Positions 59,641-64,000 of a stretch of 64,000 nucleotides of DNA are shown here, piece after piece. How positions within the stretch are numbered: position 1 is the first letter of the stretch; each line of letters begins with the position of its first letter. Origin of the DNA: Nostoc sp. PCC 7107 (GTDB lineage: Bacteria > Cyanobacteriota > Cyanobacteriia > Cyanobacteriales > Nostocaceae); assembly GCF_000316625.1 (NCBI RefSeq), contig NC_019676.1, positions 1,227,001 to 1,291,000 on the forward strand, given 5' to 3'. The translations under genes and the position numbers were made by a program. The notes under the pieces were generated by a model that made no database searches, was not told the origin of the DNA, and saw nothing but the letters and a program-made list of their open reading frames with translations.

Positions 59641-60957
59641 ATGCAATTAGAATATCGGCAGCGTCGGCAGCAGTTAATGTCAAAAATTGGTAATGGGACT
59701 GCGATTTTTCGGAGTGCGCCAATGGCAGTTATGCACAACGATGTGGAATATGCTTATCGCCAAGATAGTGATTTTTTTTACTTAACAGGCTTTAATGAAG
59801 CGCAAGCTGTAGCAGTGTTAGCACCACATCATCCCGAACATCGTTTTATTTTGTTTGTTCAACCAAAAGACCGAGAAAAAGAAGTGTGGTCTGGTTATCG
59901 CTGTGGTGTAGATGCAGCCAAAGAAATTTATGGTGCTGATGCAGCTTACCCGATTAATGAATTAGATGAAAAGTTGCCCCAATATTTGGAAAAAGCCGAT
60001 CGCATTTATTATCACTTGGGGCGCGATCGCCATTTTAATGAAAAAATTTTAGAACACTATCAAAGTTTACTGCGGACTTATCCAAAGCGAGGTACAGGGC
60101 CAATTGCCATTGAAGATACTTGTACAGTACTTCACAGTCTGCGATTGATTAAAACAGAATCTGAGTTAGAAATGATGCGCCAAGCAGCAGCGATCGCCGT
60201 TGAAGCACATAATCAAGCGATGGCGATCGCTAAACCCGGACGTTATGAATACGAAATTCAAGCCGAAATTGAACGGATCTTTCGACTCCGAGGCGGAATG
60301 GGGCCAGCTTATCCGTCGATTGTGGCTTCTGGTGTGAATGCTTGCGTTCTCCACTACATTGAAAATAATTGCCAGATGCAGGATAGAGAGTTGCTATTGA
60401 TTGATGCAGGTTGTGCATACAGTTATTACAACTCAGATATTACCCGCACATTTCCTGTTGGTGGTAAATTCACACCCGAACAAAAGGCATTATATGAAAT
60501 TGTCCTAGAAGCCCAAAAACAAGCGATCGCCCAAATACAACCAGGTAATACTTTTAAATCAGTTCACGATACCGCTGTGCGCGTCCTCACCGCAGGCTTA
60601 ATAGACCTTGGCATTCTCAAAGGCGAAATTGACAAAATCATCGAAGAAGAAAAATACAAACCATACTATATGCACCGCACCAGCCATTGGTTAGGCTTAG
60701 ATGTGCATGATGTTGGCGTTTACCAACACGGTGACGACAAACCACAGATTTTACAACCGGGTCAAGTGTTAACAGTAGAACCAGGACTTTACATCGTTCC
60801 AGATACAAAATTAGCCGAAGACCAACCACAAACAGACCCACGTTGGATTGGTATTGGCATTCGGATTGAAGATGATGTATTAGTTACACCTACAGGACAT
60901 GAAATCTTAACAGATGGAGTTCCCAAAGAAATCGATGAAATAGAAAGAGTTGCTTAG
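59641..60957 (+). CDS. pepP: Xaa-Pro aminopeptidase
   Basis: 438 residues, matching E. coli PepP. The N-terminal creatinase-like domain (FRSAPMAVMHNDVEYAYRQDSDFFYLTGF) precedes the pita-bread catalytic domain at about 175-430. Dinuclear metal ligands are in LIDAGCAYSYYNSDITRTFP (two Asp), TSHWLGLDVHD (His), TVEPGLYI (Glu) and IRIEDDVLVT (Glu). It removes an N-terminal residue preceding proline. It is cytosolic and monocistronic. Confidence 0.93.
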   Translation: MQLEYRQRRQQLMSKIGNGTAIFRSAPMAVMHNDVEYAYRQDSDFFYLTGFNEAQAVAVLAPHHPEHRFILFVQPKDREKEVWSGYRCGVDAAKEIYGADAAYPINELDEKLPQYLEKADRIYYHLGRDRHFNEKILEHYQSLLRTYPKRGTGPIAIEDTCTVLHSLRLIKTESELEMMRQAAAIAVEAHNQAMAIAKPGRYEYEIQAEIERIFRLRGGMGPAYPSIVASGVNACVLHYIENNCQMQDRELLLIDAGCAYSYYNSDITRTFPVGGKFTPEQKALYEIVLEAQKQAIAQIQPGNTFKSVHDTAVRVLTAGLIDLGILKGEIDKIIEEEKYKPYYMHRTSHWLGLDVHDVGVYQHGDDKPQILQPGQVLTVEPGLYIVPDTKLAEDQPQTDPRWIGIGIRIEDDVLVTPTGHEILTDGVPKEIDEIERVA

Positions 60958-61166: not shown

Positions 61167-64000
61167 ATGGTCAGTAATAGTTCTGTGCAGGCAGATAAAA
61201 ACCAGCGCTTGGTAATGCGCCTGCCACGCACATTGAGTTATCTAGAAACCTGGGGTTTTGGGCTGACAGGTCATGTAGGATGGATTGGCACTGCACCGGT
61301 TATCCATGCAGCATTGGGATCTAAAGCAATTTTAGTGTGGTTGTTTGGCGTAATTGTCTCCTGCATTTTGAACTTGCAAATCCAAAGTTTAGGCAAACAT
61401 TGGTTAGATGTAACAGGAGGAACGCCTAATTATACGGCTCGGCTGCTCAAAAACTTTCCAAATATAGGTCGCTACGTTGCCTTGGGATATTATTTTAGCT
61501 GGGCAGCAGCACCAGCTTTGTATGCAATTATCCTCACAGATTTAGTCAAGGTTAATTTTCAACCTTTAGGCATTTCCTGTCCAGAAACTTTCTTAAAAAT
61601 TGCATTTACGGTAGTTCCTTTTATTTTGGCATTTAGTGGTACTCGTGCTGTCGCACTACTGCACCTATTTTTTGTCATTCCCGCAATTTCATTAGTGCTT
61701 TTGTTTTGTACTCAAGGCGGAATTTGGTTAGTTTTCTCGCAGGGTATTAATTTGTTTCCACCGAGTACCCATAGCCTCAGTTTTGCAGAATGGGCAAAGT
61801 CTTTTTTCCTAGCTAGTTATTCAGTTTACGCTTGTGAAACCACATCTGCTTTTGTCGCTGATAGTCGTTCTCCCCAGAAAACTTTGAAGTTTTTAACGAC
61901 AGCTACGTGGTTAATTCCGCCAGTATTTCTCGGTGGTTCTTGGGTCTTAATGTGTGCCTCTACCAACCCAGATATTGGTGAAGATACATTCTTGAATTTA
62001 CTTACAGCATCCCAACCTTTTTGGGGTCAATTTGCCCCTTTTTTAGTCACACTACTCATTACTTTCTCATGTCTGTTGAGTTGTGCTACGGCTGTTACCA
62101 ATTCTCCCCGCATTCTTTACCAACTTGCCTTAGATGGTCAGTTGTCTCCCGTATTCACGGTAGTTTCTCGTCAAGGGATCTTGGGGCCTGCTATCTTCAT
62201 TACTTTTTTACTCAGTCTGCTTTGTTTGAATTTAGGCAATGTATCTCAACTTGTCACCGTAGCAGGTACATGTTATTTGTTATCGATTATGGGACTGCAT
62301 CTAGGATTGTGGTTATGTCGCCATCAACCAGAAGTTTTATGGCCTTGGTGGTCATTGGGTTTTTTTTTCGTAGAAGCAGTAGTTTTAGTAGTTGGGGGTT
62401 TAGCTTGGAGTTGGTATGAGTTATTAATTGGGCTATTTGTACCCTTTGCATTGATGATAGGAGATGAGGTGCTGCGTCGCTGCAACTTTGCACCATTTGA
62501 TTCTCAATGGTGGACACAGCGTGACGAAGGACAGTTTAGTAGTTATAATCCAGACTTTGTTGTACTTCAGGTAATTGTTCTAGTTTCTCTTATTTGTAGT
62601 TCTGCTATTGGCAGTTGGTTTCTGCGTAATTTATTGGATGGAGACCATAATACCTCGCGGAACTCTTTACTAGCGATCGCTTTAGTCATGCTTTCGTTTG
62701 TTGGGGTAGCGATCGCTTGCTGGACTACCCTACCACAAATTGCGGCTATTGATGAAGCACGCCAACAGGCAAAAAACCTATTTATTACCACCCTCAATAC
62801 TGTTCCCGATATTGTTTTAGTTCTTGATGAACAAGGTATCATCCTTCAGACCAATGTAGCGGCTGAAGAATTATTTCAAATTAGCACCCAACAGTTAGTC
62901 GGGCAGAACTTGAATCAATTCCTCATAGACCATTATGGCAAACCAGAGCAATGGGCTATGAGGAGTGAACAAACGCTCAAAACTAACCAAGGCTCATACA
63001 TTGTTGAATCTACTGTTTCCCAACCATCTAATCTCCAACTACGACAATACGTTGTCATTTTGCGAGATATCACTCAGCGCAAACTAGCCGAAGAAGAACT
63101 CAAACAATACCGTTGTCAGCTAGAGCAGTTGGTAGCAGAACGTACCATTGAACTCATGAGAGTTAATCAACAACTGCAACAAGATATTATCGAACGACAA
63201 CGCGCACAAGAACTATTGCTACACAACAGTTTACATGATGCTCTCACAGGACTACCCAACCAATCGTTGTTCATGGAGCGAGTCAAACAGGCTCTAGAAC
63301 GCACTAAACAACAAAAAGATTATGTATTTGCCGTACTCTTCTTAGATTTAGACCGTTTTAAAGTCATTAATGACAGCCTGGGACATTTACTCGGAAATCA
63401 ACTGTTAATTGCCATTTCCCATCGACTCCAGTCAGTTCTACGTGCAGGAGATATGATTGCACGGTTTGGCGGGGACGAGTTCACAATTTTACTTGACGAA
63501 ATTGATGAAATTAATGATGCAATACACGTAGCCGAGCGAATTCAAAAGTTACTAGCTTTACCATTTCAATTAAATGAACATAAAGTTTTTACCAACGCAA
63601 GTATAGGAATCGCGGTGGGTAAAAATAACTATGAGCAAGCTGCCAATATTTTACGGGATGCTGATGTGGCAATGTATCGTGCCAAATCCCTTGGTAAAGC
63701 ACGTTATGAAGTATTCCATCCCAAAATGCACGAAAGTGCATCTCTGCTATTGCAGTTAGAAACTGCTATGCGCCATGCACTCATCCAGCAAGAAGAATTT
63801 CGCCTCCACTATCAACCCATTGTTTCGCTGCTGACGGGCAAAATTATCGGATTTGAAGCGCTGATTAGGTGGCATCATCCAGAAAGAGGTATCATTTCCC
63901 CAGAAGATTTTATTCCCCTCGCAGAAGAAACAGGAATGATTGCTTCTATTGGTCAATGGGTGCTTTATGAAGCCTGTCGTCAATTGCAAGCATGGCATCA
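61167..64000 (+). CDS. APC permease-like sensor fused to PAS-GGDEF-EAL (partial)
   Basis: Open from ATG 61167 to the right edge, 944 residues seen. Residues about 15-530 are hydrophobic with some twelve to fourteen spans and resemble amino acid-polyamine-organocation permeases (WGFGLTGHVGWIGTAP, GGTPNYTARLL, TNSPRILYQLALDGQLS). Two extra spans end near 530. A PAS domain follows at about 540-640 (LVLDEQGIILQTNVAAEELF), a coiled coil, then GGDEF with an intact RFGGDEF (768-772) and EAL with GFEALIRWHH (897-899) cut by the window edge. The GGDEF part should make c-di-GMP; EAL activity cannot be judged without the rest. The permease part may be a receptor rather than a carrier. Confidence 0.88.
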   Translation, partial: MVSNSSVQADKNQRLVMRLPRTLSYLETWGFGLTGHVGWIGTAPVIHAALGSKAILVWLFGVIVSCILNLQIQSLGKHWLDVTGGTPNYTARLLKNFPNIGRYVALGYYFSWAAAPALYAIILTDLVKVNFQPLGISCPETFLKIAFTVVPFILAFSGTRAVALLHLFFVIPAISLVLLFCTQGGIWLVFSQGINLFPPSTHSLSFAEWAKSFFLASYSVYACETTSAFVADSRSPQKTLKFLTTATWLIPPVFLGGSWVLMCASTNPDIGEDTFLNLLTASQPFWGQFAPFLVTLLITFSCLLSCATAVTNSPRILYQLALDGQLSPVFTVVSRQGILGPAIFITFLLSLLCLNLGNVSQLVTVAGTCYLLSIMGLHLGLWLCRHQPEVLWPWWSLGFFFVEAVVLVVGGLAWSWYELLIGLFVPFALMIGDEVLRRCNFAPFDSQWWTQRDEGQFSSYNPDFVVLQVIVLVSLICSSAIGSWFLRNLLDGDHNTSRNSLLAIALVMLSFVGVAIACWTTLPQIAAIDEARQQAKNLFITTLNTVPDIVLVLDEQGIILQTNVAAEELFQISTQQLVGQNLNQFLIDHYGKPEQWAMRSEQTLKTNQGSYIVESTVSQPSNLQLRQYVVILRDITQRKLAEEELKQYRCQLEQLVAERTIELMRVNQQLQQDIIERQRAQELLLHNSLHDALTGLPNQSLFMERVKQALERTKQQKDYVFAVLFLDLDRFKVINDSLGHLLGNQLLIAISHRLQSVLRAGDMIARFGGDEFTILLDEIDEINDAIHVAERIQKLLALPFQLNEHKVFTNASIGIAVGKNNYEQAANILRDADVAMYRAKSLGKARYEVFHPKMHESASLLLQLETAMRHALIQQEEFRLHYQPIVSLLTGKIIGFEALIRWHHPERGIISPEDFIPLAEETGMIASIGQWVLYEACRQLQAWH

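Follow-up and report, generated by a model that had tools for sequence, protein, structure and literature searches.

A transporter-like APC-fold membrane domain joined to PAS, GGDEF and EAL domains in Nostoc sp. PCC 7107: a probable sensor linked to a neighbouring decarboxylase gene

In yeast, the amino acid permease Gap1 is described as a signalling protein and Ssy1 is an APC-type sensor; both signal via separate partner proteins and are not known to have a fused PAS, kinase or GGDEF-EAL part. Among bacterial proteins, CbrA is described as an SLC5-STAC-PAS-kinase with histidine as its ligand (PMC13022988), Ks-Amt5 as a transporter-fused sensor of the Amt-kinase type (PMC5764959, PMC10433425) and AmtE of Azoarcus as an Amt domain with GGDEF/EAL (PMC8467165); for the 5TMR-LYT receptors, varied outputs including SpoIIE have been reported (PMC11109136). 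Here we analyse a gene from a 64,000-nucleotide stretch of the genome of Nostoc sp. PCC 7107 (contig NC_019676.1, positions 1,227,001 to 1,291,000; 'the window'), the product of which joins an APC-type membrane region to PAS, GGDEF and EAL domains (Table 1). We consider it probable that this protein is a transceptor-like sensor that responds to an amino acid or amine and controls the turnover of cyclic di-GMP (c-di-GMP), its ligand being tied to the pyridoxal phosphate (PLP) decarboxylase encoded nearby.

The initial annotation had described one frame that joins the membrane region, the PAS domain, an RFGGDEF motif and the start of an EAL domain. This is borne out by a single open reading frame (ORF) that leaves the window, its stop having been found by extension in the same genome, and by Pfam matches to AA_permease (35.7 bits, cut-off 24.6), GGDEF (155 bits) and, once the sequence was extended rightwards, a complete EAL domain (255 bits). 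The GGDEF part carries RAGD five residues ahead of the RFGGDEF context, and the EAL part reads EALIRW, SVNFS, EITES, DDFGTG, KIDR and AEGIE. Fourteen membrane spans were counted from the model helices (a hydropathy profile was also made), twelve in the APC core and two added; the second of the added spans is a single predicted helix that extends into the linker and bears a conserved ACWT[ST]LPQ segment. An assembly join or frameshift near residues 500–540, which would have undone the fusion, was rejected, since the membrane-half match continues without a change of frame at least as far as query residue 525 in 61/61 and 82/82 ORFs of the two collections (79 of the latter are closed, three are cut by contig ends) and residues 515–524 are one of the protein's best-conserved stretches.

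That the membrane half is related to APC transporters, as had been proposed, is shown by Pfam, by profile-profile comparison and by the fold, which in structural comparison is of the LeuT-type APC kind. The window protein was listed by PF00324 and not by PF13520 in the Pfam scan, the latter profile (cut-off 27) matching two other members, L174 and L176, with 71.6 and 56.8 bits. In a search of the PDB, the membrane-half profile retrieved LysP (E 1.1e-5); the sole other row, COX7a, was dismissed as a chance match, and a search with the single membrane-half sequence returned only carbonic anhydrase near E 0.9. Assignment to a specific APC subfamily was rejected, the curated matches being too weak: trimethylamine N-oxide (TMAO) permease is the best curated match of the window protein and of seven of nine further members (L174, L176, L104, L099, L159, L165 and L199), the seven at E 5e-10 to 2e-6 and far below the 690-bit cut-off, and another APC subfamily is the best match of L100 and L116.

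Relatives of the membrane half are present in 23 of 60 related genomes, in 42 of 386 genomes across the phylum and in 99 of 217 genomes of the family Nostocaceae (E up to 1e-30), the window's own genome being included each time. The initial annotation had regarded transporter-like domains as rare sensors; within the cyanobacteria this does not hold for the APC sensor, which is common there, mostly with kinase outputs. A scan of wider genome contigs confirmed 230 stretches, and the best 80 of these, representing 79 loci, all have cyanobacterial titles except one metagenome-assembled genome called Tatlockia, the protein of which (L161) groups with L159 of Aliterella in the membrane-domain tree. 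The two collections comprise 143 ORFs, some of them the same gene twice, or 129 after identical cores were collapsed, and no free permease was found among them. The shortest closed ORF encodes 609 aa and is of the kinase type (L175:5962-8427, + strand); its frame stops ahead of the ATPase part, which is found in the next ORF. Permease-sized frames (456–497 aa) in the phylum sample match only at 22–32% identity and E 7e-5 or weaker, alongside a few short or stop-broken fragments (33–56% identity), and the family sample also contains shorter partial frames matching the membrane half. A search for relatives on plasmids found none. In one genome (G147), three APC-kinase genes follow one another (L089:2985-12245, − strand).

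According to motif labels, 77 of the 129 ORFs end in a kinase, 42 in GGDEF-EAL and one in SpoIIE; nine have no label, three of these being cut by contig ends. Pfam analysis of 19 members identified HisKA/HATPase outputs, HisKA with a receiver (L048, L104), HisKA_2/HWE (L166) and SpoIIE (L179), and it showed L176 to be a GGDEF-EAL member and L174 to consist of APC and PAS alone. Use of the membrane domain as a sensor is strongly suggested, since it is found fused to kinases, to GGDEF-EAL enzymes and to a SpoIIE phosphatase and no free member occurs among the collected ORFs. The SpoIIE-type protein (L179:5986-8727, + strand) represents a third kind of output. L174 (L174:5917-7878, + strand) is a 653-aa protein without an output domain, and downstream of it, on the opposite strand, lies a gene that by eye resembles secA.

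It is unlikely, in our estimate, that the APC part has degenerated into a membrane anchor, a relict of the fold, with the PAS domain alone sensing a cytoplasmic cue. APC transporters usually have a small Gly-x-Gly substrate segment in transmembrane span 1 (TM1), and the family alignment has W-x-G/A/S at this position, with a near-invariant Trp in 131 of 135 rows; the register to free permeases was set by eye, the hhalign alignment being gapped there. This replacement and the lack of a free member among the collected ORFs would suit an anchor. However, the membrane domain is well kept, with a mean column identity of 61% (50 members) against 33% for whole proteins, a figure that mixes unlike outputs; the Glu of TM6 is retained in 132 of 135 rows; and two members without a recognised PAS domain, L085 and L100, still keep APC and output, L085, from Nostoc, having the APC domain joined directly to GGDEF-EAL.

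Among 43 distinct GGDEF-EAL tails, picked by their EAL motif, GGDEF is present in 42, RxxD in 39, EITE and KIDR in all 43, DDFGTGYSS in 40 and AEG[IV]E in 42. Since the motifs of both domains are kept in the window protein and its relatives, both synthesis and breakdown of c-di-GMP by this protein are possible. In a free tree of 96 membrane domains (10 chosen GGDEF-EAL rows and 86 others) the GGDEF-EAL proteins are nested within kinases and two changes of output are needed, the nearest relatives of the Nostoc GGDEF-EAL group being the kinases L159 and L161 (SH-aLRT 94). Over 113 aa from aa 534 onwards, the window protein and the PAS region of L159 share 54% identity; therefore, the exchange of outputs took place behind the PAS domain. 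The second GGDEF-EAL form, L165 from Aliterella, has one extra PAS domain. Its whole tail is most similar to an own-genome paralogue (59%, 736 bits) and matches the window gene over a shorter stretch (55%, 526 bits), and its trimmed core lies closest to a protein of G176 (63%) and to paralogues of its own genome rather than to the Nostoc tails. A single origin was not rejected by the membrane domain (approximately unbiased test, p 0.106). Among 200 bootstrap trees computed for the output parts, none keeps all APC-linked tails together, the starred branches alone being compatible with one origin; these trees left out 11 of 24 paralogues in one case (out of frame, without motif or too short) and 6 of 21 in the other. 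Replacement of a kinase by GGDEF-EAL behind a shared PAS domain probably occurred twice, which is favoured rather than proven.

The ligand is approached through the gene neighbourhood. A 383-aa PLP decarboxylase is encoded 997 nt downstream of the sensor gene in convergent orientation (equivalent of window 65544-66695, outside the window), with a short-chain dehydrogenase gene in between. The decarboxylase lies within the fetched flank of 33 of 36 Nostoc-type GGDEF-EAL loci, as the first downstream gene in 31, and is their most conserved neighbour. It also adjoins nine kinase-type relatives: in the sister kinases L159 and L161 it is divergent, 201 and 171 nt away, and of the other loci six have it upstream on the same strand and one convergent. 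Co-occurrence was scored in overlapping samples, with the GGDEF-EAL form defined by a membrane half at least 70% identical and the decarboxylase by a score above the cut-off of NCBIfam model NF002748. The decarboxylase was found in 10/10 GGDEF-EAL carriers versus 2/50 others among the 60 relatives, in 6/6 versus 2/380 in the phylum sample and in 57/58 versus 13/159 in the 217 Nostocaceae genomes (Fisher p 2e-38). Within the window's genus (11 genomes), both genes are missing from G003 and G008. An ad hoc filter without a chance control yielded ten positions common to both decarboxylase-linked sensor groups, the best being Ser217 in TM6 (43/44 and 6/7 versus 10/84); these were not used.

The linkage might instead be an inherited gene order of one clade that says nothing of the ligand. 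Most carriers are indeed Nostoc relatives, and a ParA-like upstream neighbour is likewise retained at 27 of the 36 loci. Yet this upstream neighbour changes between Nostoc groups (aminopeptidase P at five loci) and the decarboxylase stays; the three orientations involve different sensor and decarboxylase subclades; and in G005, G006 and G010 adjacency has been lost and the decarboxylase is retained elsewhere in the genome. On balance, we find mere gene order rather improbable, though it is the most serious of the alternatives.

As to the substrate, the neighbouring decarboxylase scores 528.4 bits (cut-off 305) with NF002748, a histidine decarboxylase model. A classic pair is formed by a decarboxylase and an APC exchanger. 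The membrane domain could accordingly be a histidine/histamine transporter-receptor, with the c-di-GMP enzymes reporting flux or binding, and CbrA is described as a histidine transceptor (PMC13022988). Nevertheless, among solved structures those of plant serine/alanine decarboxylases come closest (403 bits), followed by bacterial histidine decarboxylase (339 bits), and the pocket carries the YPY motif of serine decarboxylase in place of YPE, so that we rate the histidine reading as the least probable of those considered. In the plant enzymes, the pocket position of YPY is described as deciding between serine and alanine (PMC11407765). Fifteen sensor-less decarboxylase loci were examined, excluding three relocated copies in sensor carriers as well as G543, G544 and G501:C113. 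Two of the fifteen adjoin ethanolamine-permease-like APC transporters (L204:5204-6661, − strand; L216:6190-7635, + strand), for which ethanolamine permease is the best match with 364.5 and 341.1 bits, just below the cut-off of 381.75, the next best being about 118; this pair was spotted by eye before the scan, which covered these two only. Because of the nearest structures, the YPY motif and these neighbours, serine/ethanolamine is favoured with low confidence as the substrate and product.

Several observations weigh against the proposed sensor and its link to the enzyme. In hhalign comparisons, two single permeases of the ethanolamine type gave low probabilities (5.8% and 1.0%), the co-occurrence statistics ignore kinship, G558 has the sensor and no decarboxylase above the cut-off, and neighbour clustering of the kinase type placed a decarboxylase within 4 kb at only three loci. 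Furthermore, the His that precedes the PLP lysine is absent from each of the 45 entries for decarboxylases linked to GGDEF-EAL genes or to L159/L161 (some being the same gene from two collections), which read SAK or SGK in place of SGHK; the activity of the linked enzymes is therefore uncertain. The three relocated copies likewise lack this His, and 21 of 22 others retain it, the pattern failing to read the remaining one. As the linked decarboxylases are otherwise intact and conserved, they may have been remodelled rather than decayed. One of the linked decarboxylases without this His is encoded outside the window at L121:16545-17696 (− strand), and at L219:4292-7942 (+ strand) a decarboxylase-like sequence forms part of a 1216-aa protein.

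In the sensor reading, which we prefer, control of c-di-GMP would be exerted through substrate binding or transport; the ligand, the direction of regulation, transport and phenotype are what we infer. The APC-fold domain would bind, and perhaps also carry, a small amino acid or amine; the resulting movement of the LeuT-type core would pass through the two added spans and the long helix to the PAS domain, which would set the balance between synthesis by GGDEF and breakdown by EAL. Motility or hormogonium formation, which the initial annotation suggested as controlled behaviours, would be conjectural outputs. The ligand would probably be the substrate or product of the decarboxylase, with serine/ethanolamine ranked above histidine/histamine. 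More specifically, and only as a tentative proposal, a dedicated cyanobacterial family of APC-fold sensors might detect serine-derived ethanolamine (or the amino acid it derives from) that the partner decarboxylase produces or uses up, and might have been rewired twice from phosphorelay to c-di-GMP with the sensor unchanged. If so, within the literature searched, the family would provide the first case in bacteria of an APC transceptor coupled to an enzyme of second-messenger metabolism, and the partner decarboxylases that lack the His might in turn be remodelled components of the signalling system.

The upstream Xaa-Pro aminopeptidase, which neighbours only five of the 36 Nostoc-type GGDEF-EAL loci, is probably outside the sensor system for this reason.

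Table 1. Features of the sensor gene and its upstream neighbour in the window
Feature	Window position	Strand	Remarks
APC-PAS-GGDEF-EAL gene	61167..64000	+	1126 aa; stop outside the window, equivalent of window 64547
APC-fold core	61263..62276	+	Pfam AA_permease match aa 33-370; structural matches span about aa 16-454
Two extra spans	62553..62795	+	helices aa 463-489 and 496-543
PAS domain	62790..63083	+	about aa 542-639 (Pfam)
GGDEF domain	63231..63698	+	aa 689-844; RxxD motif and RFGGDEF intact
EAL domain	63765..64000	+	aa 867-1103, rest outside the window; EALIRW and DDFGTG present
Xaa-Pro aminopeptidase	59641..60957	+	upstream neighbour

To our knowledge, few input signals of c-di-GMP signalling are known in Nostoc, and the linked decarboxylase provides a short, testable list of ligands for a c-di-GMP enzyme there. 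With this family, the APC fold joins the few transporter folds that serve as fused signal inputs in bacteria, and the attachment of one conserved sensor to several unlike outputs offers a natural experiment on the way in which kinases and cyclases read transporter-type movement. Among titles and the beginnings of abstracts in the open-access literature, no bacterial APC-fused GGDEF protein or kinase was found; the word 'permease' is absent from the main text, as available, of a study of c-di-GMP enzymes in Anabaena PCC 7120 (PMC13075795) and from the available text of a review of cyanobacterial second messengers (PMC10117731).

With CbrA and the SLC5-STAC kinases the window protein shares a LeuT-type transporter domain, a linker, a PAS domain and an output in one chain, and the ligand of CbrA is an amino acid, histidine; the window protein differs in having an APC rather than an SLC5 domain and in belonging to a family that also uses GGDEF-EAL and SpoIIE outputs. 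In Ks-Amt5 and AmtE, too, a transporter-like domain has a kinase or GGDEF/EAL attached to it, but this is an ammonium transporter domain with ammonium as the ligand. The protein stands outside both groups, since Pfam matches to SLC5 (SSF) and STAC domains were found neither in the window protein (E up to 1) nor in 18 further members (0.001), and none to the ammonium transporter domain in the same proteins. The 5TMR-LYT receptors also use a transporter-related fold for sensing at the membrane, with kinase, GGDEF-EAL and SpoIIE outputs that can replace one another, as far as they are described (PMC11109136), whereas their fold is that of S-components. The free APC permeases (LAT, ApcT, AdiC, LysP and the ethanolamine permease) resemble the 12-span core in fold and are related to it by profile, and are distinguished by the two extra spans, the output fusion and the altered TM1 segment (judged by eye) of the family described here, and by its weak curated subfamily matches. 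Gap1 and Ssy1 are described as amino acid permeases that act as nutrient sensors, but are eukaryotic. Transporter-fused bacterial sensors and yeast APC sensors are already known, and the window protein, which belongs to none of them, would work alike.
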